In this document: positions 35,946 to 51,393 of the stretch, piece by piece
How positions within the stretch are numbered: position 1 is the stretch's first letter
Layout: the number at the start of each line of letters is the position of its first letter
NCBI GenBank assembly: GCA_026645935.1
Contig: JAPKMP010000005.1
Span: 62,001 to 126,000 of the forward strand
Reading direction: 5' to 3'
DNA: 64,000 nt
Origin: Candidatus Villigracilaceae bacterium
Lineage (GTDB): Bacteria; Chloroflexota; Anaerolineae; Anaerolineales; Villigracilaceae
Translations under genes and position numbers: made by a program
Notes under the pieces: model-generated
The model's input: the letters and a program-made list of their open reading frames with translations, nothing else
Databases searched by the model: none
Told to the model about the DNA's origin: nothing

Positions 35946-35983
35946 AAAAACGGGGTTGCGTCTGAGACGCAATCCCGTTTTTG
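35946..35983. terminator. bidirectional terminator between convergent genes
   Basis: AAACGGGGTTGCGTC and GACGCAATCCCGTTT pair around TGA, with an A-run before and a T-run after, so it works on both strands. Confidence 0.9.
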
Positions 35984-36024
35984 ATTTCAGGTGAAGGCTT
36001 TTAATGCATGGTAAGGTCCGCGAA

Positions 36025-37251
36025 CTACGGTCCCCACCTCATGGATTCGGCGTAAGGGACGAGCGGGATCATCGCCTTTTGCCCGTCCGTATAATACAAC
36101 TCCGCCGCGCCGCCGAAATAGATCTGCTCGTTCTGCGCGTTGGCAACGATGACGAAACTTGCGTCGGACGCCCAGAGCGCTTCGTTCATGTATTCGAACG
36201 TTTCCTGGCGCAGGACGGTCCTTCCGGTCACGCCATCCGCTGCGGAACGGACGAGTTGCAACGGCGTGCGGTTGGGGATGTCGTTCGGGTTGGGGATGGT
36301 GCCGAAAAAATAATATAACTGTCCGTCCGGCGCAGCGAAGGGATTGTCCGCCACCTCGGCGGGATTTGTGTCGAAATCTCCGAGCAAAAGGGTTGTCACA
36401 TTTCCCGAGTTCGTATCCACGCGCCACAACCCGGCGGCGAACATACCGAAAGTGGGGCTGGCGGCAAATAAAGCCGAGCCGTCGCTGGTTAGGGAATAAT
36501 CGCCGCAGCAGATGATTCCTCGTTGCTCGTTGACCAAACGGACAAGCCCGCCCCCGTTTGTGTAATAGACGGCAGAGGATGCGCCTTCGTAATATCCAAG
36601 CGTGATGATAAGGCGGCTCCCGTCGGCGGAGTACATTTCGGGCCAGTACAACTCGCGCGGGATGACAAGCCCGCCGCCGACATCGTCGAGGGAATCATCC
36701 AGCACGCGGTTGGATTGTCCGCTTGCGACCGAGTAGAAGTTCAAGCCTTTGTGACCGAAGGCGATCGTCTGCCCGTTCGGCGAAAAGACCGGGCTGTTGA
36801 TGCGCGTCAGGAACGGGTTGTTTTCGTCCACCGCGCCGCCGTCGAAGATCATGCGGCGGTTCGAGCCTTCGGCGTCGATCAGGAACATCTGATTATTGGA
36901 CGTAAAGACGACGCTGCCGTCAGCAATGGATACGTCGTATTCGGTTATCTTGGAAGGCTCGAAGGTCAATTGAGTCACCGTCCCGCCGTCCTTCTCGAGC
37001 CGGAAGACCTGCAATATCTGCGCGGCGTCGTTGGCGAGAAAATACATCGAGCGGGGTAGAAGGCTTGAGGCGGAATCGACAGGCGCGGGCGTGGAGGGAG
37101 CCGGGGCTGTCATCGCGGCAAACGTCGCTGCGACGACCGTTTCCACATTGGCGGGTCCTTCCTGGGGCGCGGGTGTCCCCAACGGGTTGGCGCATGCCAA
37201 GGCAAAAAGGATCAGCGCAGACAACCCGATCATCCAGTTTTTGTTCTTCAT
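36025..37251 (-). CDS. lipoprotein with TolB/WD40-like beta-propeller
   Basis: 408 residues. The signal peptide ends LALAC (lipid Cys near 20), then an Ala/Pro/Thr stalk. The rest shows repeated propeller blades: SRSMYFLANDAAQIL at the start, SPVFSPNGQTIAFGHKG, PEMYSADGSRLIITLG, SLTSDGSALFAAS, similar to TolB/PD40 repeats. It should be anchored outside the membrane and may bind peptides or sugars. GAGG lies five bases before ATG 37251. It is separated from the c-di-AMP receptor genes by 66 bp on the same strand. Confidence 0.82.
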   Translation of the reverse strand: MKNKNWMIGLSALILFALACANPLGTPAPQEGPANVETVVAATFAAMTAPAPSTPAPVDSASSLLPRSMYFLANDAAQILQVFRLEKDGGTVTQLTFEPSKITEYDVSIADGSVVFTSNNQMFLIDAEGSNRRMIFDGGAVDENNPFLTRINSPVFSPNGQTIAFGHKGLNFYSVASGQSNRVLDDSLDDVGGGLVIPRELYWPEMYSADGSRLIITLGYYEGASSAVYYTNGGGLVRLVNEQRGIICCGDYSLTSDGSALFAASPTFGMFAAGLWRVDTNSGNVTTLLLGDFDTNPAEVADNPFAAPDGQLYYFFGTIPNPNDIPNRTPLQLVRSAADGVTGRTVLRQETFEYMNEALWASDASFVIVANAQNEQIYFGGAAELYYTDGQKAMIPLVPYAESMRWGP

Positions 37252-37317
37252 TATCACCTCTTCATTAAGCGAACAAAGACGCGCGAAGACGTCTTTGTTC
37301 GAGAGAATACAAAAAAA

Positions 37318-37578
37318 TTATACCTGTTCGTAATGGCTGATGGGCAGGACGAATAGTGTCGCTCGTTTTTCATCGCCTTTGGGAGGGAGCGCATCGCGAA
37401 CGGTTCGAATGACGGCGTCGACTTGATCGCCCTCGACGCCCAGAAGCATGGTCGCCACGCCGCGCCGTAAAAAGCCGCCGGTGGATGCAACGCGCGTCAC
37501 GCGGAAATTTGCGGCGGTGAATGCCTGTGTCAGGGTTTCGGCGTCATCCCCCTTTACGATGACAATGATCAGTTTCAT
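37318..37578 (-). CDS. DarA/PstA-like cyclic-di-AMP receptor, copy 1
   Basis: 86 residues. MKLIIVIVKGDDAETLTQAF, FRVTRVASTGGFLRRGVATMLLGVE and the ending VLPISHYEQV match the PII-like cyclic-di-AMP receptor family (DarA/PstA, DUF970). The T-loop is short. The conserved Thr-Gly-Gly-Phe stretch is the cyclic-di-AMP contact in known members. These trimers signal cyclic-di-AMP levels, which in many bacteria control potassium and osmolyte transport. It lies downstream of a second copy and next to cation transporters. Confidence 0.85.
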   Translation of the reverse strand: MKLIIVIVKGDDAETLTQAFTAANFRVTRVASTGGFLRRGVATMLLGVEGDQVDAVIRTVRDALPPKGDEKRATLFVLPISHYEQV

Positions 37579-37595
37579 GGCGATTTCTCCTCAAC

Positions 37596-37628
37596 AGACC
37601 CGGAAGGTTTTTGTAACCTGTCAGGTCT
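37596..37628. repeat. decayed copy of the AGACCTGACAGG repeat
   Basis: The right arm CCTGTCAGGTCT is identical to that at 21744-21755. The left arm matches at 9 of 12 positions. It lies between the two receptor genes and weakens as a terminator because the left arm has mutated. Confidence 0.65.
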
Positions 37629-37633
37629 AATTT

Positions 37634-37969
37634 TTATATTTGTTCGAATCGTTCCACCGGCAGGGCAAACACCGTCGCGCCGCCAACGGTGACAGGCACG
37701 GGCGCGGGCATCGGCATGGGCGAACCTTCCAGGGGCAGCGTCATGTATTCGATGCGCTGGCGGCAGGCTTCGTGCAGGATTTTCAAGGAATCCTGCAAGC
37801 GATCCGCCGGCAAGCCCACCAACAGAGTGGCATTGCGCCTGCCCAGAAATCCTCCCGCGCTTGCGAGATACGTCGATGACGCGCCTATCTTTTGCAGGGC
37901 GTTGGTTGCCGAATCAAGGTCCTGTTCCTGCACGACCGCCATCAACAATAAGAATTTTGGATGATCCAT
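37634..37969 (-). CDS. DarA/PstA-like cyclic-di-AMP receptor, copy 2 (divergent)
   Basis: 111 residues from ATG 37969, which has AGGAG seven bases upstream. FLLLMAVVQEQDLDSATNAL, TYLASAGGFLGRRNATLLVGLP and the end FALPVERFEQI align with copy 1 along the whole chain, but it has a longer Pro/Met-rich loop near 80-95, and the key Thr before Gly-Gly-Phe is Ala. Ligand binding may therefore differ. It precedes copy 1 on the same strand and directly follows the broken permease tail. Confidence 0.8.
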   Translation of the reverse strand: MDHPKFLLLMAVVQEQDLDSATNALQKIGASSTYLASAGGFLGRRNATLLVGLPADRLQDSLKILHEACRQRIEYMTLPLEGSPMPMPAPVPVTVGGATVFALPVERFEQI

Positions 37970-38121
37970 GCTCTTCTCCTGGGATGATTCGCCATCCGGG
38001 TTCGACCCAACACCCATGCCGCGCCTCTTTCCGCGCCCGGGTTTGATTCTATTTCAGCAGGCGTTTCTTCCGCTTCGATATTATCATCACTCCCGCGATG
38101 ATTCAACCTTGAAGTGCCGTT

Positions 38122-38301
38122 TCAAAATAAAGGGAACGCCAGGGCGTAAAGAATGCTCGCGATCGCGCAGGTGACGATCATGACCGGCAGACCGCGCTTG
38201 ATCCATATCACCGAAGTGATGGGCGTGCGCGTTTTCTCGGATAGCGTGGCGACGATGATGTTCGCGCTCGAACCGATGATCGTACCGGTGCCGCCAACGG
38301 T
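38122..38301 (-). pseudogene. C-terminal fragment of an SLC13/ArsB-type permease
   Basis: The open stretch reads VGGTGTIIGSSANIIVA, then TRTPITSVIWIKRGLP and a final hydrophobic segment ending at TGA 38122-38124. GGnGTxIGASAN is the signature near the end of ArsB/NhaD/SLC13-type ion transporters. There is no start and the frame upstream runs into the PII-like gene. The missing N-terminal part is at 40039-40386, beyond an antiporter cassette. Confidence 0.72.
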
Positions 38302-38315
38302 CCGTATATCCAGTT

Positions 38316-38678
38316 CTATTCTACGAATATCGAATCGTTTTCACGCAGGCCGTACGCTTCCAGTACCGGCAGGACAATAAGGATGCCGGTGTGCGGATCA
38401 TCCAAACGGCCGATAACCGCCTCTGTTGCCTGAATTAGGGTCGCGATATCGAAAGAATCAGCCACCACGCTGAATATTGTGCGATGCGTGTGTTCCTGGG
38501 TCCGCAACAGGGCGCGCAGGGAAGGGATCAAGGGAAGATCGTCATGCCCTGCCAGTTGCCGCCCAATGCCGCTGCTATCCAGAATCGTGGCGCCTGGTAC
38601 GCCTATACGCGCCCATACCTCCAGGGCGGGCATCGTTTTGCTTCCATCAGCCAGAACCAGAACAATCATTTTATTCAT
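38316..38678 (-). CDS. PII-like small regulatory protein
   Basis: 120 residues with the beta-alpha-beta-beta-alpha-beta layout of PII-like trimers: MIVLVLADGSKTMPALEVWARIGVPGATILDSSG, then HRTIFSVVADSFDIATLIQATEAVIG and GILIVLPVLEAYG. The T-loop region is rich in Leu/Pro/Asp. Its ATG overlaps the stop of the Kef-type antiporter by 4 bp, so it very likely regulates that transporter. It is distinct from the DarA-like copies but of the same architecture. Confidence 0.8.
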   Translation of the reverse strand: MNKMIVLVLADGSKTMPALEVWARIGVPGATILDSSGIGRQLAGHDDLPLIPSLRALLRTQEHTHRTIFSVVADSFDIATLIQATEAVIGRLDDPHTGILIVLPVLEAYGLRENDSIFVE

Positions 38679-39910
38679 GAGGTTTTTTCCTCTTCAAAAG
38701 CCCACCTCAGCAAAGGCGGGGTGATTAAAGTGCTTATCAGAACAACCAGAATCACCAACGTTAATTCGCGCGGCGCGATGATTCCAAGACTCTGACCAAC
38801 GCTGGCAACAATCAATCCAACTTCGCCGCGAGAGATCATGCCAACTCCCACGCGGAGGGATTGCCATTTGGAAAAACCGCCCAACCGCGCTCCGAGTCCA
38901 CTGCCCAGAATTTTTGAGACCACAGCGACCAGAATCAATACCAGCGCCAGAGGGATGATGGAAACATCCAGATCGCGGATATTTGCCTGCAACCCCACGC
39001 CCACCAGAAAGAGGGGCACGAAAAAAGTGTAATTCATGGTCTGCAGTTCGCGTGCAATTTCCTCGCGCCAATGGGTCCGTCCCAATCCTATCCCTGCAAC
39101 AAAGGCGCCTGTGATGGCGGCAATCCCCCCAATATACTCCGCGCTCCAGGCAAAGAGAAGCGCAGAAACGATCACCATCGCCATCATGCCCTGGCTTACA
39201 GGAAGGCGATTTGCCCAGTCAACCAAAAGGGGCAAAACCAGATAGCCGAGTATTCCAGAAGCCAGAAGAGTCAGAACCATTCGGGTGAGCACAATGGAAA
39301 GGTTCTCCTGCCCTCCCGTCAGGCTGACGAAAATGGAGAGACCCAGGATTACGAGCACATCGTCCACGACAGCAGCTCCCAACAGGGCCACGCCCTCCGG
39401 GGTGCGAAGACGTTTGAGTTCCACAAGTGTCTGAACTGAGATGCTTACACTCGTCGCTGCAAGGATGATCCCAAGAAATATGGCGGAGTTGACTGACTTT
39501 TGAAAGGGTATTACGAGTAGTGCCGCCATGATGATGGGTGTCACCATTCCAAACAGCCCCGCGAAAATGGCCGGGCGTCCGCTTCTTCGCAAGTCGGCAA
39601 TCTCCGTATCCAATCCAGCGGAAAACATCAGAAAGATGACTCCCAACTGGGATAACTGAGAAATTGTTGTTTCCGTATTTCCAGTGGGGTCCCGTAACAA
39701 TGGTAGGTGGAATAAATCAACCACGGTCGGACCAAGTAAAAGCCCTACAAGAAGTTCGCCGAGAACGGCGGGTTGTCTGAACTTTACCGCCAAAGCGCCT
39801 GCAAGTTTTGCGCAAGCCAGCAGAATGGATAGGGCGAGCAGGAGTGGCAATAAACCTGAGTGTTCATTGCCGGGCGTGAGGGGGAGATGAGAGAAATACA
39901 ACGATGCCAT
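38675..39910 (-). CDS. Kef-type (CPA2) cation:proton antiporter
   Basis: 411 residues, about twelve membrane segments. The motifs PAVLGELLVGLLLGP near the N-terminus, LGVIFLMFSAGLDT and the ion site LLGAAVVDDVL are typical of monovalent cation:proton antiporter family 2. There is no C-terminal RCK/TrkA-N domain, which suggests control by a separate protein; the overlapping PII-like gene is the obvious candidate. With the PII-like gene it forms a cassette lying inside a broken permease gene. Confidence 0.92.
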   Translation of the reverse strand: MASLYFSHLPLTPGNEHSGLLPLLLALSILLACAKLAGALAVKFRQPAVLGELLVGLLLGPTVVDLFHLPLLRDPTGNTETTISQLSQLGVIFLMFSAGLDTEIADLRRSGRPAIFAGLFGMVTPIIMAALLVIPFQKSVNSAIFLGIILAATSVSISVQTLVELKRLRTPEGVALLGAAVVDDVLVILGLSIFVSLTGGQENLSIVLTRMVLTLLASGILGYLVLPLLVDWANRLPVSQGMMAMVIVSALLFAWSAEYIGGIAAITGAFVAGIGLGRTHWREEIARELQTMNYTFFVPLFLVGVGLQANIRDLDVSIIPLALVLILVAVVSKILGSGLGARLGGFSKWQSLRVGVGMISRGEVGLIVASVGQSLGIIAPRELTLVILVVLISTLITPPLLRWAFEEEKTS

Positions 39911-40042
39911 TCCTGTCGTCTAATGAAAACTGCAAGTTGAAGCACATGGGCAATGCGGACAAACACCGCCACGGCTTCGCGAGCTGCCGCTTTTGGAGGA
40001 TTTTGAAACGACAACCCGATTCATGCAACCTGAAAATTTCAT
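39905..40042 (-). pseudogene. fossil of a CBS-domain gene
   Basis: Reading in three successive frames gives MKFSGCMNRVVVS, then AREAVAVFVRIAH, then ALPM and LDDRNGIVVF. These align in order with the first CBS motif of the gene at 40383-40842 (MNVSSCMKRNVVS, REAAAIFVKKH, LLPVVDKND). At least two indels separate the pieces. It sits directly before the antiporter. Confidence 0.5.
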
Positions 40043-40386
40043 GATGAATCCGTATCCTTGGTTGCTGGATTGACCCGAAATGCCTGATTGCTCCTTGCCC
40101 CTGCCGCGCGCGCGGCGAGCACAGCCAGGTAATCGAAGAATCCCGTCGGCTCGAGCAGGAAGACAAGAATCTTCATGCCCAACAGCAGGCCGAGCATATT
40201 GAAGCCGATGGCTTCGATGGCAAGGTCTTCATTATAAAAGTAAAAGTCGAGGATCTTGCCCGCGCCGATCATCAACACTGACCCGGCGATGGCGACGATG
40301 GAACGGTTGATCTTCTCCCAAAAAATGAGTACCAGGCTCCCGAAGAAGATCGTGAAGGTAAGAATGACGGAAAAGGATCCCATCAT
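40039..40386 (-). pseudogene. N-terminal fragment of an SLC13/ArsB-type permease
   Basis: About 115 residues from ATG 40386, which overlaps the CBS stop. Three hydrophobic segments include INRSIVAIAGSVLMI and FNMLGLLLGMKILVFLLEPTG, the conserved start of ArsB/NhaD-type permeases, which usually exceed 400 residues. After AARAAGA (near 40097) the sequence turns polar and soon stops. The matching C-terminus lies at 38122-38301, so the gene is interrupted. Confidence 0.75.
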
Positions 40387-40842
40387 TCCACCTTTTCCCA
40401 TGCTTTGAGGATCGTCACACCGATATCCACGCGCGAGTCGATGCCGATCAATTTTCCATCCCTGGCAACGAGAGGAATATCATGCAGGTTCTGCTGAAGC
40501 ATCAGGGAATAGGCGCGCAGAAGACCGCAGTCCTCATCCACAGTAATGACCGGGCGCATCATCGACCTGACCGTTTTTTTTCAATGTCACGGCGGGTGGA
40601 CGGGTATCCTCCACCGCGCCGAAGTCATGGACGAAATCCACGTCCATCACGAAGTTGACGAAGTCGGGCATTTCCAGTTTGAGCAGGTCGCGGATGCCGA
40701 TCACGCCAATGGGTTTATCGTTCTTATCCACGACGGGCAGCAAGCCGATATGTTTTTTGACGAAAATCGCCGCGGCTTCACGCACAGTCGTGGACGCGGA
40801 AACGGATACTACATTGCGTTTCATACAGGAGGACACGTTCAT
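40383..40842 (-). pseudogene. two-CBS-domain protein with a frameshift in an A8 run
   Basis: The first frame encodes one CBS motif (MNVSSCMKRNVVSV, then HIGLLPVVDKNDKPIGVIG). At a run of eight A's near 40578-40585 the frame is lost; skipping one base restores VRSMMRPVITVDEDCGLL and NLHDIPLVARDGKLIGIDS, the second CBS domain, ending in a TGA that overlaps the permease ATG. CBS pairs bind adenyl nucleotides. It may be a dead gene, a slippage-controlled gene or an assembly error. Confidence 0.7.
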
Positions 40843-40912
40843 GGGAAACTCCGGAAGTCAGAAGGATGAATAAAATATTACTCCATTCGCATCTTTTCGC
40901 GCCGGATGCGGG

Positions 40913-41263
40913 TCAACTGCCAGCCTCCCCGCCTCGATAAACGCGTATTTGCACCTTTTCGACCGTGGCTAGCATCCCGCGTTTGATCCTGCTCTCGGCA
41001 AAGGATAAAAACCTTTCGATGTTTTCGCTGCTGTCCACGATTTCAACCACCATGGGAAGGTCTTCCGAGAGGCGTTCGATCTTAAATGTGTGAATCACCC
41101 TGGAGTGCGCGCCAAATCCCATCATCCCTCGCAGAACAGTCGCCCCCGCGAGACCCTGCGATTTCGCTTCCGCAACCAGCCACTCATAAAGCGGCTTTCC
41201 ATCGATTTTGTCGCTCTCGCCTATGAAAATGCGAAGCAAAAACCCCTCTTCAGGTAAAGTCAT
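40913..41263 (-). CDS. DUF190 domain protein
   Basis: 116 residues. EEGFLLRIFIGESDKIDGKPLYEWLV and ATVLRGMMGFGAHSRVIH are the DUF190 signature, another PII-like small fold, commonly encoded with CrcB. The end has VEKVQIRVYRGG. It starts 3 bp after the crcB stop, so both are under the fluoride riboswitch. The exact role is unknown; a partner in fluoride handling is inferred from context. Confidence 0.92.
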   Translation of the reverse strand: MTLPEEGFLLRIFIGESDKIDGKPLYEWLVAEAKSQGLAGATVLRGMMGFGAHSRVIHTFKIERLSEDLPMVVEIVDSSENIERFLSFAESRIKRGMLATVEKVQIRVYRGGEAGS

Positions 41264-41266
41264 CGG

Positions 41267-41650
41267 TTACCTCCAGATCGAATAAGCGAGTGCGTGGCCC
41301 AGCCAGACCGCCCCCAAGCCGAGCATGATATGCACAGCCAGGTTGAAAAGCGCCGACATATATTCACTGTCGCGCATCAGATTAAAAGTTTCATTCCCAA
41401 ACGTTGAAAAGGTGGTGAATCCGCCCAGCAGTCCAACGAACAAAAAGCCGCGCATTTCAGGCGTAAACGCCCCTTGAGATTCGGCGATCTGCGAAAGAAA
41501 GCCTATGATCAAACAACCCGCAAGGTTGACTGCGAGCGTGCCGTAAGGAAAAGCAATGCTGTTCGACATCCCCTGCACATATCCGCTGAGGACATACCGC
41601 AGGATGGAGCCGATAAATCCGCCGAACCCAATGATGATGAATTTGCTCAT
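41267..41650 (-). CDS. crcB: fluoride ion exporter CrcB/Fluc
   Basis: 127 residues, four membrane segments. GFGGFIGSILRYVLSG at the N-terminus, GTLAVNLAGCLIIGF with the pore Asn, and GLLGGFTTFSTFGNET with the Phe box and Na+-site are all present. Works as an antiparallel dimer that lets fluoride leave the cell. A fluoride riboswitch sits 26 bp upstream, which is strong independent support. DUF190 follows in the same transcript. Confidence 0.97.
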   Translation of the reverse strand: MSKFIIIGFGGFIGSILRYVLSGYVQGMSNSIAFPYGTLAVNLAGCLIIGFLSQIAESQGAFTPEMRGFLFVGLLGGFTTFSTFGNETFNLMRDSEYMSALFNLAVHIMLGLGAVWLGHALAYSIWR

Positions 41651-41675
41651 TCCTACTCCTGACCAAAGAATATTT

Positions 41676-41722
41676 GGCAGGAGTCATCAGCGCTCGGCGG
41701 TTAAAGGCGGACTCCATCGCCA
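41676..41722 (-). promoter_or_regulatory. fluoride riboswitch (crcB motif)
   Basis: On the minus strand it begins GGCGATGGAGTCCGCC, continues TTTAACCGCCGAGCGC and ends TGATGACTCCTGCC. These are the conserved parts of the crcB motif: the GGCGAUGG opening, the GCCG joining region and the UGAUGACUCCU pseudoknot strand. It lies between a TATAAT box and crcB, so it should turn on export when fluoride binds. Confidence 0.95.
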
Positions 41723-41730
41723 TCTTTTCG

Positions 41731-41736
41731 ATTATA
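41731..41736 (-). promoter_or_regulatory. -10 box of the crcB transcript
   Basis: TATAAT on the minus strand, nine bases before the riboswitch starts. No good -35 hexamer is visible. Confidence 0.6.
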
Positions 41737-41828
41737 ACGGAAATATCCTTTCCGAGATCGCCTTCCATTCAGAACGGGTTTAGCGCGAAAGCATCGGTAA
41801 AATTTTCCGTGTTGGATGCTGCGTGCAT

Positions 41829-41880
41829 AACGCAAAGGCACAAATGTTTATTTAATTCCTGGCGACCTGGCGTCTTTGCG
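41829..41880. repeat. second ACGCAAAG-type palindromic repeat
   Basis: CGCAAAG (41831-41837) and CTTTGCG (41874-41880) are inverted. The segment GGCGACCTGGCGTCTTTGCG resembles parts of the element at 24931. The right arm lies inside the 3' end of the exchanger gene and encodes its last residues. Confidence 0.6.
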
Positions 41881-42960
41881 CTTTACTCGTTTGGAACGGG
41901 CGGACCTGACCGCGAACGCAACCAGTACAATAAATGTCAGTGGAATAAAAAATGCCGCAAACAACGCAACGCCTGGAAACGCCGCGCTGTTCATCGCATC
42001 CGTGACGATGTAAGTCATATATAGAAGGAAATAAGCAAATAACAGTCCGCCCTCGAGACGCGAGATGTGGTTGTCAATATAGAAGACGGGAAGTGTGACC
42101 ATTGCCACGAAGACCATGGCAGGAAAATCGAACGCAAGCGCACGTCCTGTAACCGCAATTCCGTCCGGGGCAACGATCGATCCAATTCCCAGAACCCCGA
42201 GCAGGTTGAAGATATTACTTCCCACCGCGTTCCCGACAGCGATGTCACTTTCCCCTTTGAACGCGGCGATGACCGAGGTCGCCACTTCGGGCAGGGAGGT
42301 TCCGGCTGCGACGATGGTCAAACCGATGATGAGCTCGCTTACGCCCAGAGAGCTGGCGATCTGTGTGGCGGAATTCACCAGCCAGTCCGAGCCCTGGACG
42401 AGCAATCCCAAACCAACCGAAATGAAAAGGAGGTTGACGATGATGTTGCGCGCCGTACGCGGTTCCTTTGCCGCGAACTCCTGGGCATATTCCCTTTGCA
42501 CAGCCCGGCTTTCCCTCCTGCTTTGACGAAGGGCGAAGATCGTATAAACGATCAACCCAATTATCAGGACCGCGCCATCCAAATGTCCAAAGCGGCCATC
42601 GAGGGCGAACGCAAAAACCAGCAGGGAGATTCCCAGCATGATGGGCGCGTCCTGGCGGATGAGTTGTTCGGCGATCACGATCGGCGCGACCAATGCAGTA
42701 ATGCCGAGAATGAACAGGATGTTGAAAATGTTCGAGCCGAGCACATTGCCCAGCATCAGATCGCCTTGACCGCTGGCGGCGGCATGCAGTGAGACAGCGA
42801 TCTCAGGCGATGCTGTTCCAATCGCGACAACCGTCAATCCGATGGCGAGCGGCGAGACGCCGAATGCCGCGGCGAGACGCGATGCGCCGCGTACCAGCAG
42901 ATCTGCGCCGAGGATGAGGATTGCAAGTCCAGCAAGGAAAAGGAGGATAGTTGTGATCAT
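41848..42960 (-). CDS. calcium/sodium antiporter (CaCA family, YrbG-like)
   Basis: 370 residues. Two homologous halves carry the alpha-repeats: GLTVVAIGTASPEIAVSLHAA and GLTIVAAGTSLPEVATSVIAA, each followed by GNVLGSNIFNILFILG or GNAVGSNIFNLLGVLG. These bind Na+ and Ca2+. It exchanges sodium for calcium across the membrane. ATG 42960 begins the first membrane segment. The C-terminal tail KRKDARSPGIK is encoded by a repeat arm and is probably not ancestral. Confidence 0.95.
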   Translation of the reverse strand: MITTILLFLAGLAILILGADLLVRGASRLAAAFGVSPLAIGLTVVAIGTASPEIAVSLHAAASGQGDLMLGNVLGSNIFNILFILGITALVAPIVIAEQLIRQDAPIMLGISLLVFAFALDGRFGHLDGAVLIIGLIVYTIFALRQSRRESRAVQREYAQEFAAKEPRTARNIIVNLLFISVGLGLLVQGSDWLVNSATQIASSLGVSELIIGLTIVAAGTSLPEVATSVIAAFKGESDIAVGNAVGSNIFNLLGVLGIGSIVAPDGIAVTGRALAFDFPAMVFVAMVTLPVFYIDNHISRLEGGLLFAYFLLYMTYIVTDAMNSAAFPGVALFAAFFIPLTFIVLVAFAVRSARSKRVKRKDARSPGIK

Positions 42961-43206
42961 GTTTGTTCTCTCGCGCCGTAATTCTTTAAGATCCACCGTA
43001 TTGTGTAATTGCGAAATGCATGATACCAGAAATGGATGAATAATTTGAGTGCTTATTGTTCCTTAATAAATTTGGTTTAAAATTGCGACAGATCGAGTTG
43101 CTGATGATACGAACCATGAGACAACGTTCGTATTGTAAAGGTTCAATAATATCGGAAAGTACGCGGGAATGCCCGAATGATGGCGAGATAGCAAGGAGAG
43201 TTTTCC

Positions 43207-43659
43207 ATGAATGTCCAGGATATTATGATCCGGGATGTGATCAGCATTTATGTGGATACGACTGTGGACGAGATCGCAAAGGTTTTGAACGAACATCGCA
43301 TTGGAGGCGCGCCGGTGGTGGACAACGAGAGGCGGGTCATCGGCATCGTCTGTGAAAGCGACCTGTTCCTCAGAGAAAAAGGATTGCCCTTCTCGGCTGT
43401 AAAGATCCCGACCCTGTTCAAACGCTGGGTGGATCCGGATCGTCTGGCGGAAATCTACGAAGGCGCTCGCCACCACACCGCTGCCGACGTGATGACGACC
43501 AACGTGGTCTGCGTGGACGTTGACGACACCGTTGGTCATGCGGCTTTGCTCATGGTGCAGCGCAACATCAAGCGTATTCCCGTTCTTCAGGATGGCAGGC
43601 TGGTGGGCATCATCACCCGCACCGACATCATCCGTTTGCTGGCAAGGGACGAGGAATGA
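43207..43659 (+). CDS. two-CBS-domain regulatory protein
   Basis: 150 residues, two CBS motifs: [22 protein letters not shown] with [22 protein letters not shown], and [17 protein letters not shown] with [21 protein letters not shown]. The pair binds adenosine nucleotides. AAGGAGAG supports the start. Its stop overlaps the mrpA ATG, which makes it the head gene of the Mrp operon and a likely energy-state sensor for it. Confidence 0.95.
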
Positions 43660-45965
43660 TCCTGGCAATTGCGGTCTTGTCCGGTTTTGGGCTTGCGTTC
43701 CTCGCGCCTTTTCTGACGCGGCGATTGGGGAATACGGCAGGTTTGATTCTTGCGCTTTTACCCGCCGCGCTCACCATTTATTTTGCCAGCCTCCTGCCGG
43801 ATGCCGCCGGAAATGAACCCGCAACCTTTTCATTTCCATGGGCGGTAGAAATGGGGATTCTCTTTTCATTCCGTGCCGATGGATTGGGTTTACTTTTTGC
43901 CCTGCTTATCAGCGGCGTTGGCGCGCTGATTTTCATTTACGCGGGCGGCTACCTGAAGGGCAATTCTAATCTTGGGCGTTTCTACGCATGGCTTTCCGTG
44001 TTCATGGGCGCGATGATCGGGGTGGCGCTCGCGGATAATATCCTCGTCCTTTTTGTATTTTGGGAACTCACCAGCATCAGTTCGTACATGCTCATCGGCT
44101 TCGAGCACGAGCGGGAAAGCGCGCGTTTTTCCGCATTGCAGGCGTTTCTTGTTACAGGCTTGGGCGGGCTGGCAATGCTTGCCGGGTTACTGCTGCTTGG
44201 GATTTCAGGCGGCTCTTACGAACTTTCCGTCCTGCTACAAAAGGGCGATGCGCTCCGGGCGGATGCACTTTACATCCCGGCGGTCGCGCTGATTCTGCTG
44301 GGTGCGTTCACCAAATCGGCGCAGTTCCCCTTCCACTTCTGGCTCCCGAACGCGATGGAAGCGCCGACGCCCGTCAGCGCATACCTGCACTCGGCGACGA
44401 TGGTCAAAGCCGGGGTCTATTTGCTGGCGCGGCTCGGACCGGCTCTCAACGGGACCGACCTGTGGTTCTACACTGTCGGTGGCGTGGGCGCGGCAACGAT
44501 GCTCGTCGGCGGGTATCTTGCTTTGACCCAGACCGACTTGAAGCGATTGCTCGCGTACTCAACAGTCAGCGCGCTGGGAATGTTAACCATGCTTATCGGT
44601 CTCGGCTCGAAACACGCGCTCGAGGCGGCAGTGGTCTTGTTGCTGGCGCACGGGTTATATAAAGGCGCGTTGTTCCTCGTGGCTGGCGCGTTGGATCACG
44701 AGACCGGGACACGGGACGTCACACAACTCGGCGGATTGTTTTCAAAGATGAAACTGACCGCCATTGCAGGAGGGATCGCCTCCCTCTCGATGGCAGGCTT
44801 GCCTCCCTTATTTGGATTTATCTCCAAGGAATTGACCTATGAGACCGCGCTCGAATACGGTTCGTGGCTGACGGGTGTTGTTGTCCTTGCAGGGTTGTTC
44901 TTCGTGTTCGTCGCCGGGGCTGTCGGCGTGGCACCGTTCTGGGGGAAGCCGAAGCAAACCCCAAAGTCCGCGCATGAGGCGCCCTTCAGCATGTGGTTCG
45001 CCCCGATGACCTTGGCGGGGCTGAGTCTGCTCATCGGTATTTTTCCCGTGCCGGTAAGCGGTTTCCTCGTGAGTCCGGCTGTCTCTGCCGCGATCGGTGA
45101 AGCGACCACGGTCAAACTGAAATTATGGCACGGTGTAAACACAGCCTTCATCCTGAGCATGTCAACTTTATTGATCGGCGCGGGATTGTTCGCCGTTCGC
45201 GATTCGATTCGGAGAGGGCTTTCAAAATTGACCTGGAGGTGGGGACCTTCATTTTTCTATGAACGTTCGCTCGACGGACTCAACACGCTGGCACGCGGGC
45301 AGACACGCTTCCTGCAAAACGGCTATCTGCGCTTTTACCTTTTCACAGTTGTGTTCGCGGGGACCGGGTTGGCGGGTTTTACTCTTTTCGCCCGCGATGG
45401 TTTTCACTGGCCTGAAAAGGTTTTGGATATACGTTTTTATGAAGCAATGCTTGCTGTTCTGATCTTATGCGGCGCGTTCTTTGCGACGATATCAAGGTCA
45501 AGGCTAGGGGCGGTCGCATCGCTGGGGGTCGCCGGGTACGGTGTGTCGTTGATCTATCTCCTGTTTGGTGCGCCCGACCTGGCGATGACGCAGTTCCTCA
45601 TCGAATCCCTGACAGTCATTCTGTTCGTGCTCGCCTTCTATCATCTGCCACAGTTCACACAACTCAGTTCCCGGCGCACCCGTCTCCGCGATATTTTCAT
45701 CGCTCTGCTTGCAGGAGGGGTGATGACTACGCTGGTGCTGAGCGCTGTTGGCATCCAGCTGCATGACAGCATTTCACCCTATTTTGCGCAAAACGCTTTG
45801 CCGCTAGCCCACGGACGGAATATTGTCAATGTGATCCTTGTGGATTTTCGTGGGATTGATACGTTGGGCGAGATCACTGTGCTAAGTATTGCCGCTGTTG
45901 GAGTATACGCATTATTGAAACTAAACCCGCACACAGGGAAAGATAAGGAGGGAGAGGGCGAATGA
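43656..45965 (+). CDS. mrpA: Na+/H+ antiporter subunit MrpA
   Basis: 769 residues. An NuoL-like core ([75 protein letters not shown]) is followed by the extra C-terminal membrane domain of the MbhE/MrpA type ([50 protein letters not shown]). It is the large proton-pathway subunit. Starts within the CBS stop and ends within the mrpB start. Confidence 0.96.
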
Positions 45966-46378
45966 CATCGTTGATCCTCCGCACGACCGCGCGCTATTTG
46001 ATGCCGCTGCTTTTGATCTTTTCCGTTTTTTTGTTCCTGCGCGGGCACAACCAGCCGGGAGGAGGGTTTGCGGCCGGCTTGGTGGCGGCTGCTCCCTTTG
46101 CCCTTTATTCGATTGCCTTCGGCGCGGTGAAAGCGCGCCATGTCTTGCAGGTAAGACCGCGCTACCTGATCGTCACCGGGTTATTGGCATCCGTTGTCAG
46201 CGGCGCGATCGGCATGTCAGTCGGGAAACCCTTCCTCACCGGGATATGGGGTTATCTCTACTTGCCGGGTTCGGGCAAATTAGAAATAGGAACGCCAATC
46301 CTTTTCGATCTGGGAGTTTATCTGGTGGTGATCGGTGTATCACTATCCATTATTTTTGCACTTGAGGAGGCAGAATAA
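45962..46378 (+). CDS. mrpB: Na+/H+ antiporter subunit MrpB
   Basis: 138 residues, four membrane segments. [22 protein letters not shown] and the ending [16 protein letters not shown] are diagnostic of MnhB/MrpB. Overlaps mrpA by ATGA. The subunit belongs to the membrane arm and is needed for antiport. Confidence 0.96.
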
Positions 46379-46380
46379 AT

Positions 46381-46728
46381 ATGGAAATCGTTCTGGCATT
46401 CGTGATCGGCGGACTGTTTGCGGCAAGCGTCTATATGCTCTTGCGGCGCAGTCTCGTAAAACTTCTGATTGGACTGGCATTGTTGAGTCATTCGGCGAAC
46501 CTCTTGATCTTCACCTCTGTAAAACTGACGCGTGGAAGTCCTCCGGTCATCGGCATGAATGCAACAGCACTCAGGGAACCCTTTGCCGATCCTTTGCCCC
46601 AGGCGCTCATCCTGACCGCCATCGTCATCAGTTTTGGTGTCATGGCGTTTGCGCTTGCGCTGGCTTTTCGCGCATATCGAAGCGTCGGCACGGACGACCT
46701 TGATCGGATGAAAAGCACGGACGATTGA
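46381..46728 (+). CDS. mrpC: Na+/H+ antiporter subunit MrpC
   Basis: 115 residues, NuoK-like with three membrane segments; [26 protein letters not shown] and [25 protein letters not shown] are family signatures. GAGGAGG lies ahead of the ATG, at the end of mrpB. Confidence 0.96.
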
Positions 46729-46759
46729 CCGCCGCCGGAAAAAAGAAACCAAAGCAAAC

Positions 46760-48271
46760 GTGAATCCATTACTTATTCTTCCCATTCTCATTCCGCTGGT
46801 CACAGCCATCCTTGCACTGTTATTCCGGGAAGCGCGCAATGTTCAGCGCGCTTTGAGCCTGTTGGGGGCATTGGGTTTGTTCGGCGCCTCAGCAGGCTTG
46901 ATGTTCGACGTCCGGCGCAACGGCATCCAGGCGGCACAGGTCGGGAACTGGCCCGCACCCTATGGCATCACCCTGGTGGCGGATCTCTTCGGGGCGATCA
47001 TGGTCCTGCTTGCGGGAATCATTGCCATGGCAGTCGTAACCTATTCGTTGGTCAGCGTGGATGCAAAGCGCGAGGAATTTGGATATCACTCCCTGATTCA
47101 CTTCCTATTGATGGGAGTATGCGGCTCTTTCCTGACCGGGGACCTGTTCAACCTGTACGTGTGGTTCGAAGTTATGCTGATGGGTTCATTCGTGCTCATG
47201 GCGCTGGGAGGCGAGCGCGGTCAGATGGAGGGCGCGATCAAATACGTTACGCTCAATCTTCTCTCATCAGCAATGTTTCTGTCCGCGCTGGGATTGTTGT
47301 ATGCCATGGCGGGCACATTGAATATGGCGGACCTGGCAGATAAATTTTCCGATATTTCTGCCTCGCAGCCTTACGGTGTTGTTACAACCTTGGCAATGTT
47401 GTTCATGGTTGCGTTTGGGATCAAAGCCGCGGTGTTCCCTTTGTTTTTCTGGCTTCCGGCTTCGTATCACACGCCGCCAGCCGCGATTTCTGCACTCTTT
47501 GCCGGTTTACTTACCAAGGTGGGAGTCTACGCGCTCATCCGGGTATTCACGCTGATATTTGTTCAAGATGCTGGATTCACCCATAATCTGATCCTGATCA
47601 TCGCCGGTTTGACGATGGTGAGCGGCGTCTTGGGCGCGGTGGCACAGAAGGAGTTCCGGCGTGTGTTGTCGTTCCATATCGTCAGCCAGATCGGTTATAT
47701 GATCATGGGACTGGGATTATTCACGCCGTTGGCGTTGGCGGGATCCGTTTTCTACATTGCCCATCACATCATCGTAAAAACGAACTTGTTTCTTATCAGC
47801 GGGGCGGTGGAAAAGCTCGGCAGAACGCCCGTATTGAAAAAACTTGGCGGGCTCTATCAGGCGCAGCCGATGCTGGCGATTTTGTTTCTCGTCCCCGCGA
47901 TGTCGCTGGCTGGTCTGCCCCCGCTCTCCGGGTTCTTTGCCAAATTGAGTTTGGCGCGTGCAGGATTGGAAACGGGTCAATATATCATTGTGTCAATAAT
48001 GCTTGGAGTGAGTCTGCTGACATTGTTCTCGATGCTCAAGCTATGGAACGAGGCGTTCTGGAAACCCTTGCCAGCATCCGCGATTGGGAGCGGAGGAGCC
48101 GCAGGCATGGGGAATCTGCACACCTGGCTAATTTCAGTTGCGTTTCTCGCGGCGATCACTGTCCTCATTGGGATTGGCGCGGGTTCTTTTTTCAGCATTG
48201 CATTGCTGGCTGGCGAACAATTGATGAATCCACAAGATTACATTCAAGCGGTCCTTGGAGGAGCAAGATGA
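46760..48271 (+). CDS. mrpD: Na+/H+ antiporter subunit MrpD
   Basis: 503 residues, NuoN-like with about 14 membrane segments. [19 protein letters not shown] carries the conserved Glu, and [22 protein letters not shown] and [20 protein letters not shown] hold the proton-channel Lys residues. The GTG start has only a weak ribosome site; the gap to mrpC is 31 bp, the largest in the operon. Confidence 0.95.
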
Positions 48272-48762
48272 CCTATTTCATGTTGAATATTGCGCTCGCA
48301 CTTGCATGGGCGGCTTTTACCGGCAACTTCAATCCCTCGAATCTGATGATCGGGTTTATTTTGGGATATTTAACCTTGCTTGCAACGCGCCGGGCTCTGG
48401 CTCCCTCCGATTATTTTTCGAAGGTCCGGCAAGCCATCGGATTTGCGGGATTCTTCCTGTGGGAACTCGTCCTTGCCAACCTTCGGGTGGCATACGACGT
48501 AATGACTCCGCAATATCACATGAAACCGCGTGTGATTGCCATTCCGCTCGACGCACGCACCGATGCGGAGATCACCGCGCTGGCATATTTCATTTCGCTC
48601 ACCCCCGGCACGCTCAGTCTGGATGTTTCCACCGACAGACGGACTCTCTTCATCCATGCCATGTATGCGCCCGATGCCGATACAGTCAGGCGCGAGATCA
48701 AACAGGGTTTCGAACGACGCCTGCTGGAACTCATGCGCGGCGACCCTGCAAAGAGAGGTTAA
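48268..48762 (+). CDS. mrpE: Na+/H+ antiporter subunit MrpE
   Basis: 164 residues. Two or three N-terminal membrane segments ([28 protein letters not shown]) then a cytoplasmic domain with [20 protein letters not shown], the MrpE signature. ATG 48268 overlaps the mrpD stop and is preceded by GGAGGAG. Confidence 0.95.
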
Positions 48763-48764
48763 GC

Positions 48765-49040
48765 ATGAATATTCTCATCAATGTTACTTTTGGATTGTTG
48801 ATCCTGGCAATGTTCATCGCGTTTGTCAGGCTGGTCATCGGTCCCAGCCTGCCCGCCAGGGTGGTTGCGCTGGACATGATGACGGTACTGGCAGTCGGCA
48901 TTATCGCCGTTTACTCGGTTGCAACCAAGCAGCCCCTTTTCCTGGATGTCGCCATCGTTCTCGCGCTGATCGGGTTCCTCGGCACCGTCGCTTTCGCGCA
49001 CTTCGTCGAAAAAGGAGACCTGCCATGGCGGAAGGTATAA
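48765..49040 (+). CDS. mrpF: Na+/H+ antiporter subunit MrpF
   Basis: 91 residues, three membrane segments. FVRLVIGPSLPARVVALDMMTVLAVGIIAVYS and LDVAIVLALIGFLGTVAFAHF are typical. Starts 3 bp after mrpE with GAGAGG upstream. Overlaps mrpG by 16 bp. Confidence 0.95.
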   Translation: MNILINVTFGLLILAMFIAFVRLVIGPSLPARVVALDMMTVLAVGIIAVYSVATKQPLFLDVAIVLALIGFLGTVAFAHFVEKGDLPWRKV

Positions 49041-49402
49041 GTTTGGTTTTGTTATTTCTGGGCGCGGTGTTCATGCTGCTTGCATCCATTGGGCTGGCCC
49101 GCATGCCGGATGTCCTTATGCGTCTGCATAGCACCACCAAATCCACGACCCTCGGTGTGGGGTTGATCATGCTGGGCGTCGCGCTGACTTTCGACGATTT
49201 CGCCATTGGGGTGCGCGCGCTCGCTATTGTGATATTCATGTTCTCCACCGCACCAGTGGCTGCGCACATGATCGGAAGGGCGGCATATCTTTCAGGTGTG
49301 CCGCTTTGGAAAGGAACGCTCAGCGATGAAATGCGCGGGCATGATTTTGAAAGCCATCCTGTGACTGAGCAGACCCGCGAACCGGATGGCAGGCAGCCCT
49401 GA
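49025..49402 (+). CDS. mrpG: Na+/H+ antiporter subunit MrpG
   Basis: 125 residues with three membrane segments; FLLASIGLARMPDVLMRLHSTTKSTTLGVGLIMLG-type sequence is the MrpG signature. The start is set by AAGGAG inside the end of mrpF. The C-terminal 35 residues are polar and extend past the usual end. It is the last gene of the mrp operon and converges with the GpgS fusion gene. Confidence 0.94.
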   Translation: MAEGISLVLLFLGAVFMLLASIGLARMPDVLMRLHSTTKSTTLGVGLIMLGVALTFDDFAIGVRALAIVIFMFSTAPVAAHMIGRAAYLSGVPLWKGTLSDEMRGHDFESHPVTEQTREPDGRQP

Positions 49403-49446
49403 CGCCGGGTTTTTCAGCTAAAGTTTTATTCACTATCGTCCATATG

Positions 49447-49559
49447 TCGTTGCGAGGGTGATCTCCCCGAAGCAACCTCCCGTTTTCAAGCGCATTCCCA
49501 TTCAAAAGGAGGTTGCTGCGCCGTCGAAAACCAAGAGCGGCGGCTCGCATCAACATAAT
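49447..49559. repeat. palindromic repeat of the TCGTTGCGAGGG family
   Basis: Opens TCGTTGCGAGGG, contains the inverted arms AGCAACCTCC (49471-49480) and GGAGGTTGCT (49508-49517), and ends CTCGCATCAACATAAT, a decayed complement of the opening. It fills the space between two convergent genes. Its relative is at 58865. Confidence 0.65.
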
Positions 49560-49587
49560 TTAGCATGATGTATGGTAGCAAAAAGTT

Positions 49588-51393
49588 TCATCCCTTGTTT
49601 CTGTTGAGATACTCCGGCACTTCGATCATCGGCGGGCGCTCGTATTCGGCGATCTGCTCCACGTCCAGAAGATAACCCTTGCCGTCGTGACGGATCAATT
49701 TCATCGAACGGTTTACGTCCTCCAATACAGCCCGCCCGAAGCGTTTCTCCAGCTTGCGGATGACGGTCTGGATGATGGCGAAGGACATCTTGCCCAGCGC
49801 CTCCAAATGCTGGTTGTGATGGATGCGCTCCAGCAGATCCACCTGGGCGATGGATTCCAAATGGAACTTTTCATAGATGCCGATCAGCAAACCTGTCTCC
49901 ACGCCGTAACCCGAATAAAAAGCGGTTTGTTCCAAGGCGCTGCGCCTGCCAGCATACTCACCTGAAAGCGGTTGGATGACCCCGGAAAGTTCAGGGTAAA
50001 ACAGATTCAACAACGGGCGCGCCGTCAACTCGGTCACGCGCCCTCCCCCGCCCGCCTGGAACCTCTGCCCGACCTTCAACGGCCTGCGGTAAAAACCCTT
50101 TACCAACTGCACCTGCGGGTTTATCAGCAACGGACCGATGATGCCATACACGAAGCGCGGATGGATGTTGACGATGTCCGTATCGATCCAAACGATGATA
50201 TCGCCTTTGGTCACCAGCAAGCTTTTCCACAGGGCTTCGCCCTTTCCGCGGCGGGGTTCCAAATCCGGCAACAGTTCCTGATGAATATAAACGGGTATGC
50301 CCTCCTTTACGGCAATCTCGCGCGTACGGTCCGTCGAATCCGAATCGATCAACACGATCTCATCCAAAAGCGGGTTCCGCCGCATCAATTCCTTCTTCAT
50401 CGTGCGGATGACTTTTCCCACCGTTTCTTCTTCGTTCAAGGCGGGCAAAGCAAGGCTGATACTCACGCCTTGTTGTTCCTTCAGTTTTACAAGCTCGCGC
50501 AGGTTATTGAACTCATCGGCATGAAACGTGTTTTCCGCAAACCATTTATCCACAAGGATCGAGATCGCCTCGAACCCCGCGCTTTCATCGAATTTGATCT
50601 GCGGCATGGGTCTGCCATTTTTGACGGCGATCACCGCGCACGGCGCTTCGTGCAGGATTCGATCCGCGACTGCTCCGAGCGATGCAGAACTGGTGATGGG
50701 TTGAGCCGTCGTACCCAAAATGATGACATCCGATCTTTTTGCGTTGTCCAAAATGACCTGCGCCGCATCATCCGTGACCTCGAACTGTTTCTGCACTTCA
50801 GGCATTTGATTCAGCACCCGCTCCAACCCGATAAAAGCCGCATCCGCCCTGACTTCGGGATCATTCGGCTTGCGGATGTGAAGCGCGGTCACGCCCTTGG
50901 GCTGCAATCCCAGCCCAACCTTGAAAGCCAACTCGGCATGCGGACCGCCTCTCATGGGAACGAGGACCTGCTTCGGTTTGCCGGTGATTTTTCCGCGCAC
51001 CAGAGCCACATCACAGGGCGGGCGAGTCAGCACGTCGCTCGCAGTGACGTTCAAGGCTTTGAGGTGTAAATCAAACTCAAGACAGAGCAGATCCGGGTTT
51101 TCATCCTGTATCAGGTTCGAAAGCTCCTCCCAGGGCTGGTGCGAAACGATCACCTGGTTCCTGCTCGTGATCCGTTTATCCTTGCCGAAGATGCGCAAAG
51201 TACGCCGCAATGCGCGTGCCGCGGCAGCGCCTGTGCTAAGGGAGTGTTCCTCCGAAACCACCACCACGCCGACGAGGACGATCTCCCCATCGAATTGACG
51301 CGCGGCATCGAGGGCGTGCAAGCCGGGACCATTGTGGACGAACGGCACAAGGATGGTGTGAATGGGTGCGAATTTTGAACGGAGCTGTATCAT
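49588..51393 (-). CDS. gpgS: tandem universal-stress-protein domains fused to glucosyl-3-phosphoglycerate synthase
   Basis: 601 residues. Residues 10-135 and 140-258 are two UspA-type domains; the second keeps the end SASLGAVADRILHEAPCAVIAVK and a GTT nucleotide loop. Residues 275-590 are a GT2 enzyme of the GpgS/MpgS type: LALPALNEEETVGKVI, RRGKGEALWKSL, the metal-binding DTD at 404-406 and PLSGEYAGRRSALE. It should join glucose from a nucleotide sugar to 3-phosphoglycerate, making the precursor of the osmolyte glucosylglycerate. The stress-protein fusion is unusual. No phosphatase (GpgP) was seen nearby. First gene after two GT4 genes on the strand. Confidence 0.85.
   Translation of the reverse strand: MIQLRSKFAPIHTILVPFVHNGPGLHALDAARQFDGEIVLVGVVVVSEEHSLSTGAAAARALRRTLRIFGKDKRITSRNQVIVSHQPWEELSNLIQDENPDLLCLEFDLHLKALNVTASDVLTRPPCDVALVRGKITGKPKQVLVPMRGGPHAELAFKVGLGLQPKGVTALHIRKPNDPEVRADAAFIGLERVLNQMPEVQKQFEVTDDAAQVILDNAKRSDVIILGTTAQPITSSASLGAVADRILHEAPCAVIAVKNGRPMPQIKFDESAGFEAISILVDKWFAENTFHADEFNNLRELVKLKEQQGVSISLALPALNEEETVGKVIRTMKKELMRRNPLLDEIVLIDSDSTDRTREIAVKEGIPVYIHQELLPDLEPRRGKGEALWKSLLVTKGDIIVWIDTDIVNIHPRFVYGIIGPLLINPQVQLVKGFYRRPLKVGQRFQAGGGGRVTELTARPLLNLFYPELSGVIQPLSGEYAGRRSALEQTAFYSGYGVETGLLIGIYEKFHLESIAQVDLLERIHHNQHLEALGKMSFAIIQTVIRKLEKRFGRAVLEDVNRSMKLIRHDGKGYLLDVEQIAEYERPPMIEVPEYLNRNKG

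Follow-up and report, generated by a model that had tools for sequence, protein, structure and literature searches.

Organization of the interrupted locus

The 64,000-nt stretch of DNA analyzed here (hereafter, the window) spans positions 62001–126000 of a 210,854-base contig (JAPKMP010000005.1) from a Candidatus Villigracilaceae bacterium whose genome assembly (GCA_026645935.1) comprises 4.33 Mb in 70 contigs. It contains, on the minus strand, the two ends of a permease gene separated by an antiporter gene and a gene for a PII-like protein, upstream of two genes, designated DarA1 and DarA2, whose products resemble the cyclic di-AMP (c-di-AMP) receptor PstA/DarA. The closest relative found was the sister genome G032; its locus L078 was used for comparison, and genome G072 served as the outgroup for polarizing changes. 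G032 has one intact permease gene of 435 residues between a tandem-CBS gene and DarA1, within an array of the order CBS-permease-DarA1-DarA2-PD40, and such uninterrupted arrays, which a first-pass annotation made from the sequence alone had proposed to look for, are also present in other relatives.

Comparison of the DNA with G032 showed two blocks of homology, 35980–38297 (91 % identity) and 40106–42940 (95 %), which stop at positions 8882 and 9725 of L078, respectively. Between these breaks, which are clean at the base level, 842 bp of the permease gene are gone and 1,808 bp of new sequence (38298–40105, minus strand) stand in their place. The N-terminal remnant (40401 to ca. 40106, minus strand; colinear with L078 9725–10014) matches positions 1–77 of the 336 of the Pfam family CitMHS (PF03600, E 4e-13) and is 88 % identical to residues 1–89 of the G032 permease. 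It amounts to some 97 of the 435 residues, under a quarter of the protein rather than the third assigned to it previously, and its frame then enters the insert, where it reads 21 foreign codons up to a stop at 40039. The C-terminal remnant (38297 to 38122, minus strand; colinear with L078 8707–8882) reads GGTGTIIGSSANIIVATLSEK...ALAFPLF-stop and is 96 % identical to residues 379–435 of the G032 permease. As described in the first-pass annotation, the two pieces are correctly ordered on one strand, the minus strand, and, because both align to the same intact 435-residue permease, they are pieces of one gene and do not belong to different families. The middle of the gene was thus replaced by a segment with genes for a NapA-like CPA2 antiporter and a PII-like protein, preceded by the decayed beginning of a CBS gene, and both ends of the permease were left in place.

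A query of 280 residues from the displaced middle had no match in the bacterium's own genome at E values up to 10. Used as a control on the loci fetched from relatives, the same query recovered the permeases of all seven relatives tried (7/7) with E values of about 1e-125 or better, and nothing below E 0.7 in the window. The N-terminal part of the permease had a single match in the genome. These data bear on the possibility of an assembly or binning chimera, in which the antiporter/PII stretch would have been misjoined into the permease. The arrangement appears in one genome among 152 in the matches listed, the assembly is fragmented into 70 contigs and there is a frameshift in a nearby homopolymer, all of which would suit an artifact. 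However, the breaks lie inside a contig of more than 210 kb, a misjoin should have left the permease middle somewhere else in the genome, a second copy of the antiporter or PII-like gene was not found, and the insert has the orientation of the operon and contains a CBS fossil in keeping with this gene neighborhood. A chimera is, in our opinion, improbable.

The two remnants retain open frames, as would be expected if they still functioned as a split protein, together or with the antiporter. Against this, about 280 residues are gone, the N-terminal piece continues into the foreign codons, and it has accumulated 8 nonsynonymous and 5 synonymous changes in the window branch (2 and 6 in that of G032, polarized on G072) plus a 6-bp insertion. 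A split permease is scarcely credible, and the pieces are presumably dead.

The intact sister permease covers the whole CitMHS profile (298 bits, cut-off 31.9; E 9e-89) and also exceeds the cut-off of the Pfam ArsB family (77.3 bits, cut-off 22.2). It falls below the cut-offs of all seven NCBIfam models that it matched, including MamN (221 of 500 bits), DASS (119 of 199) and those for ArsB (99.1 of 457, 84.8 of 415 and 64.7 of 760), and the solved structures related to it are those of an arsenical pump and of VcINDY. The protein is related to the ArsB, DASS, NhaD and MamN transporters of the ion transporter (IT) superfamily, and the label ArsB-type, given to it in the first-pass annotation, was withdrawn because the NCBIfam ArsB cut-offs were missed. 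Permease genes with one in-frame stop each (TAA and TGA, respectively) were observed in L008 (G019:C107) and in G175:C6:18371–19663; these are possibly pseudogenes or sequence errors.

The resident tandem-CBS gene ahead of the permease (40383–40842, minus strand; 152 residues in the sister) shows PF00571 in both of its pieces, which are 92–96 % identical to the G032 protein. A three-way alignment with G032 and G072 located a +1 frameshift in a T8 run (40574–40581; A7 to A8 in the coding sense). The gene has otherwise 3 nonsynonymous versus 8 synonymous changes, so that the lesion is either recent or a homopolymer error. Hence, of the flanking regulators that had been described as kept, DarA1 and DarA2 are as in the sister, but the CBS regulator is frameshifted, be it by a real lesion or by an error. 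Other flanking genes aligned with G032 had no frameshift in the comparisons made.

The inserted segment

From its upstream end, the insert contains a CBS fossil, the antiporter gene and the PII-like gene, ending 18 bases past the stop codon of the latter. No direct or inverted repeat of at least 12 nt frames positions 38298–40105, and the antiporter and PII-like genes are the only two intact genes in the segment. An origin as an insertion sequence, transposon or integron cassette was consequently rejected.

The spacer upstream of the antiporter gene (39911–40105, 195 bp) is single copy in the genome, and its one weak match among the fetched loci was the start of a CBS gene in G079 (72 % DNA identity over 85 bp), which led to the recognition of the fossil. 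This fossil is what is left, near the front of the insert, of the 5′ end of a second CBS gene (40042 to 39957, minus strand), degenerate and frameshifted. In an nhmmer search, it matched positions 1–85 of a CBS profile made from 18 sequences with 19.7 bits (E 1.7e-7), compared with 8.2 bits for the best of 500 approximate dinucleotide shuffles; the translated pieces alone scored only 1.5 and 1.1 bits. The fossil called in the first-pass annotation is thus recognizable at the DNA level.

The antiporter gene (38675–39910, minus strand) codes for 411 residues that match positions 4–371 of the 375 of PF00999 (E 5e-60), with the membrane domain at residues 34–403. Among solved structures, those closest to it are 5bz2 and 4bwz, of a Na+/H+ antiporter (E 1.5e-35); its motif VVDDV aligns to VIDDV of 5bz2, and residues D183 and D184 are invariant in 7/7 aligned antiporters. 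A comparison in PMC11150392 identifies 5BZ2 as NapA and assigns a DD motif to NapA and a QD motif to KefC. The antiporter had been labeled Kef-type; a CPA2 antiporter does stand between the remnants, but we rejected KefB/KefC in favor of a NapA-like label because the motif is DD instead of QD and there is no RCK domain, Pfam having found the membrane domain only. The score against the NCBIfam CPA2 subfamily model TIGR00932 was 167.1 bits, under its cut-off of 238.3. The protein has the CPA2 superfamily in common with the glutathione-gated K+ efflux systems KefB/KefC, with profile matches far under cut-off, and differs from them in its DD motif and in ending with the membrane domain. From its family and motif it is a putative Na+ (or K+)/H+ antiporter; unlike NapA, which it resembles in the DD motif and in the match to 5bz2, it is paired with a PII-fold protein through overlapping stop and start codons.

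This partner (38316–38678, minus strand, 120 residues) starts at an ATG that overlaps the antiporter stop codon (ATGA). It had no match in Pfam or NCBIfam at E values up to 0.001 and no related sequence in PDB (best E 0.77, unrelated). Its AlphaFold2 model (predicted local distance difference test, pLDDT, 84; predicted TM-score, pTM, 0.72) retrieved PII structures of the GlnB/GlnK type in Foldseek (best E 7.6e-6, probability 1.00), with moderate TM-scores of 0.57–0.60. The partner is accordingly predicted, by structure only, to have a PII (ferredoxin-like) fold, which agrees with its initial designation as PII-like.

Source of the antiporter/PII pair

A tree built from 58 CPA2 proteins placed the window copy with those of G072 (genus g27), G092 and G093 (both g28) with support 99/96, as well as with that of G203, from another family, with support 100/100, and all 16 rows from its own genus lay apart; three sequences with in-frame stops (G035, G155 and L159) were left out. 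Correspondingly, the window antiporter is 72–74 % identical to those of G072, G092 and G093 versus 43–48 % to the copies of its own genus, and G032 contains distant antiporters only (best E 2e-20). Since the window antiporter belongs to a clade that is foreign to the genus, the pair was acquired from outside. Together with the intact arrays of relatives and the match of both remnants to one permease, this bears out the earlier proposal that a replacement or insertion swapped one ion transporter for another.

Genomes G072, G092 and G093 carry the pair upstream of their own DarA1-DarA2 genes, and their DarA1 proteins are 65–68 % identical to that of the window, which is in turn 98 % identical to that of G032. 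The sister-like DarA1 of the window, and the distance to those of that clade, indicate that the pair was imported without the receptor-like genes. The best named relatives of the antiporter are Anaerolineae/Chloroflexota records. They were retrieved in an alignment-based scan of contigs; searching with one antiporter sequence had retrieved no relatives.

An exchangeable slot upstream of DarA1

The family search covered 152 genomes. Of 57 genomes from the genus of the window, 53 contained DarA1. We recorded the genes upstream of DarA1 on the same strand, with a distance limit of 2.6 kb for the permease and 1.2 kb for CPA2; some permeases are cut by contig ends. In the genus, CPA2 occupied this position in 20 genomes, the permease in 16, both in 1 and neither in 16, these last containing CPA1 (7 genomes), GpgS (glucosyl-3-phosphoglycerate synthase; 5), NhaA (2), an aminotransferase (1) or a contig end (1, G005). 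Overall, a transporter of the Na+/H+ type precedes DarA1 in 46 of the 53 genomes. In the other genera of the family (76 loci), such transporters lay within 2.7 kb upstream at 23 loci, and the remainder showed an MGH1-like glycoside hydrolase (44), GpgS (1), Fic (2) or were unresolved (6); the count for the hydrolase includes the gene anywhere in the fetched stretch, mostly, although not always, adjacent to DarA1. The slot therefore holds different monovalent-cation transporters or osmolyte enzymes across relatives, and the common theme of its genes is ion or compatible-solute balance. This balance is a known field of c-di-AMP. The MGH1-like hydrolase found before DarA1 in many other genera (e.g. 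L231, L249 and L277) has about 790 residues and perhaps participates in osmolyte metabolism.

The CPA2 and PII-like genes form a two-gene module upstream of DarA in relatives; of the 20 genus genomes with CPA2, 15 have a PII gene in the interval between the antiporter gene and DarA1, as does the one with both transporters. In L046, L047, L048 and L049 (from G020, G033, G034 and G021, respectively), and in G167, the CPA2 gene is directly before DarA1.

We also screened CPA2 loci for remnants of the CBS gene and the permease. Among the 34 listed (G030 twice), 28 had neither, 5 had a CBS gene plus permease, and only G005 had a CBS remnant without a permease. In this genome (L083 1840–2190), a CBS gene with an internal deletion lies directly before CPA2-PII, there is no permease match and DarA1 is on another contig; this is a second trace of permease loss, apart from that in the window and produced by another route. 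An alternative for the window itself is that an ancestral tandem CBS-permease-CPA2-PII-DarA lost its permease by deletion: tandems of this type exist (G172, G069, G077 and G084), and the deleted CBS gene of G005 before CPA2-PII fits this route, DarA1 being on another contig notwithstanding. In the window, however, the permease C-terminus comes after PII and not before CPA2, an order that deletion from a tandem cannot give, and the CPA2 gene is not of the type found in those four tandems. Differential loss is thus contradicted for the window by gene order, where we hold it to be very improbable, and it remains the likely route for G005.

Binding-site residues of DarA1 and DarA2 and fusions to CPA1 antiporters

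DarA1 (37634–37969, minus strand; PF06153, E 1e-22) is related to PstA-type structures with E values from 1.4e-18 to 1.3e-13 in phmmer. DarA2 (37318–37578, minus strand; PF06153 positions 1–62, E 7.5e-20) is a short DarA-like paralogue of 86 residues without the B′ loop. The two belong to the same Pfam family as the PstA/DarA receptor of Bacillota, from which they differ in scoring below the cut-off of 140 bits of the NCBIfam DarA equivalog NF058593 (90.8 and 72.9 bits, respectively), in lying beside transporters and as a pair with a short paralogue, and in that the domain is fused to CPA1 antiporters in 18 genomes.

In PstA, as described in PMC4316997, monomer A contributes R26, T28, G47 and Q108 to the c-di-AMP site and monomer B contributes F36, L37, N41 and F99; the same source reports that the dissociation constant was not determinable for T28A and for the change of GGFL to AAAA, that N41A bound ca. 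26-fold more weakly and that deletion of the B′ loop allowed normal binding in lysates. DarA1 and DarA2 of the window each keep seven of these eight contacts (7/8). DarA1 has the equivalents of T28, GGFL (34–37), N41, G47, F99 and Q108, with Ser in place of R26; DarA2, which retains R26, T28, G47 and Q108, has Val at N41. The aligned Listeria PstA is also without Arg at position 26.

The residues were tallied across the family, leaving out DarA pieces with an in-frame stop. Among 103 DarA1 rows, F36, L37 and N41 were each present in 103, F99 in 98, T28 in 50 and Q108 in 33, and R26 was outside the five commonest letters listed for its column. Among 121 DarA2 rows, T28, G47 and F99 were present in 121, Q108 in 118, R26 in 117, F36 in 96, L37 in 83 and N41 in 24, so that the B half is lost chiefly at one residue. 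Across the family, the half of the PstA c-di-AMP site that is better kept thus differs between DarA1 and DarA2, and the two proteins are partly complementary in this respect. We defined a full set as T28, G47 and Q108 (A half) plus F36, L37, N41 and F99 (B half), dropping residue 26 post hoc, after seeing that Listeria PstA is without Arg, and excluding pieces gapped at position 99 or 108, which included two fused domains. Over 100 loci, the set was complete in DarA1 alone at 33, in DarA2 alone at 3, when DarA2 supplied the A half and DarA1 the B half at 94, and with the reverse pairing at 3. The pattern differed with the genus: DarA1 alone was complete in all 29 genus rows (which include one row from another genus, L079, contig C26 of G072), versus 4 of 71 loci outside the genus, where the paired set was complete in 65 of 71.

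In 18 genomes of the family, a CPA1 antiporter is followed by a DarA-type (PF06153) domain in one open frame, as in L144 (2421–4322; PF00999 plus PF06153) and L145 (5985–7886), and 17 of these have a DarA2 gene within ca. 1 kb of the fusion. Among 16 fused domains, none had the full set alone; it was complete in DarA2 alone at 3 loci, at all 16 when DarA2 supplied the A half and the fused domain the B half, and at none with the reverse pairing. In a class-wide sample of 396 genomes, the fused domain was matched in 82 (E values up to 1e-20) and, among the matches listed, five were in frames of more than 600 residues, all from this family; the query came from this same family and distant fusions could be missed.

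Possible control of the transporters by the DarA proteins

The swap by itself is a modest event; what makes it interesting is that the slot, which lies next to a c-di-AMP receptor-like pair, is exchangeable. We consider it likely that the window records a non-homologous replacement inside the CBS-permease-DarA1-DarA2-PD40 array, by which the antiporter and its PII partner took the place of the permease and came to be gated by the resident DarA proteins. DarA1 and DarA2 did not move, and the new antiporter is upstream of them in the same orientation. It would probably be transcribed, with the PII gene, from the old operon together with DarA1-DarA2, and would stand in for the permease by exchanging Na+ (or K+) for H+. 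The resident, c-di-AMP receptor-like DarA1 and DarA2 might then gate the antiporter, and the co-transferred PII protein would be a second, private regulator, which probably gates it as PII proteins gate other transporters. A diadenylate cyclase is encoded in the genome (PF02457, 135 bits). The slot, the fusions and the retained residues are what suggest control by c-di-AMP through DarA1 and DarA2; regulation of these transporters by DarA is thus a proposal drawn from sequence comparisons.

Several results weigh against this interpretation. Relaxed selection in the N-terminal remnant is weak (Fisher P 0.18 versus G032 and P 0.02 versus five other genes of the window branch) and the C-terminal remnant shows none (1 nonsynonymous and 4 synonymous changes), so it looks as if the event is young or else the evidence for decay is simply weak. 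Among the matches listed in the family search, those outside the bacterium's own genome continue for at most 12 bases beyond the right break, and the left break is spanned by none of them; no other genome with the same junctions being among them, the event rests on one assembly. Five of the 21 genus genomes with CPA2 (G020, G021, G033, G034 and G167) have no room for a PII gene, and the CPA2-PII pairing is consequently not obligatory. Neither is the slot reserved for transporters, given the MGH1-like hydrolase at 44 of the 76 loci from other genera and GpgS in 5 genus genomes. Finally, 19 of 20 CPA2-PII loci from named genomes had no DarA-like match in the stretch examined, and the pair does not therefore need DarA nearby.

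The last two points, and the finding of even Fic, Vsr or PIN genes before DarA1 in other genera, would also be explained if the swap were real and neutral to DarA, that is, if these genes merely shared a neighborhood related to salt or osmotic stress, DarA acted elsewhere and the antiporter responded to its own PII only. Yet the predominance of Na+/H+-type transporters before DarA1 in the genus and the covalent DarA-CPA1 fusions speak for a closer relationship. A neutral swap has, in our judgment, an appreciable chance of being right, although we would not favor it over gating of the antiporter by DarA1 and DarA2.

The complementary half-sites further suggest, tentatively, a more general arrangement that we think rather unlikely to hold in full. 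DarA1 and DarA2 might form across the family a split c-di-AMP receptor that reads its ligand at the mixed contact and acts as a portable module for whichever cation/proton transporter lies upstream; DarA2 would dock on the CPA1-DarA fusions in a c-di-AMP-dependent manner, and the capacity of the module to take on new clients would explain why swaps succeed. As DarA1 is complete by itself in all genus rows, the idea of a split receptor rests on the other genera and on the fusions.

The function of DarA was given as unknown in PMC7900238, from 2021, and PMC12802241, from December 2025, describes PstA/DarA as a conserved c-di-AMP receptor with downstream partners still unknown. For cyanobacteria, PMC10117731 places the PII-superfamily protein SbtB and c-di-AMP at bicarbonate/Na+ transport and names NhaS5 and NhaS2 as putative c-di-AMP receptors; SbtB partners SbtA, whereas here a DarA-type pair stands beside exchangeable antiporters. 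Among open-licence papers we found no report of a link between DarA and antiporters, of PstA heterotrimers or of c-di-AMP in Anaerolineae/Chloroflexi, which is weak evidence of absence. The slot, the CPA1 fusions and the half-sites provide testable candidate partners and a candidate mode of assembly for DarA/PstA. The swap in the window is a natural experiment: an unrelated gene took over the place of one possible client, with the receptor-like genes kept.

Other features of the region

Downstream of DarA2 lies a gene for a PD40/TolB-like propeller protein (36025–37257, minus strand), a common downstream neighbor of DarA1-DarA2, whose PF07676 match is weak (20.9 bits, cut-off 20.9). Upstream of the CBS gene, DUF190 and CrcB genes (40913–41650, minus strand; PF02641 and PF02537) are also neighbors in the sister, with 97 and 99 % amino acid identity to G032, respectively; DarA1, DarA2, the PD40 protein, DUF190 and CrcB are altogether 93–99 % identical to their G032 counterparts. 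Promoter-like sites in the region were not in excess (5, versus 4.7 in shuffles), and terminator-like sites were somewhat in excess (13 versus 7.9, standard deviation 2.8).

Contig C26 of G072 (L079, 6,685 bp) carries an intact CBS-permease-DarA array with 82–87 % DNA identity to the window, unlike other g27 genomes, with ca. 65–70 % identity to the window array. This contig may represent binning contamination or a (recent) transfer and was used as an outgroup only.

A second antiporter difference from the sister occurs at 42940–49598, where the window carries antiporter genes labeled Mrp-type, including an MrpA-like one at 43656–45965, together with a divergent CBS gene; the Mrp label comes from similarity rather than a family search. 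At this place G032 has NhaA (L078 12718–13947), and in G077 (L146 2418–2537) a 40-residue match to NhaA is retained beside the same Mrp/CBS genes.

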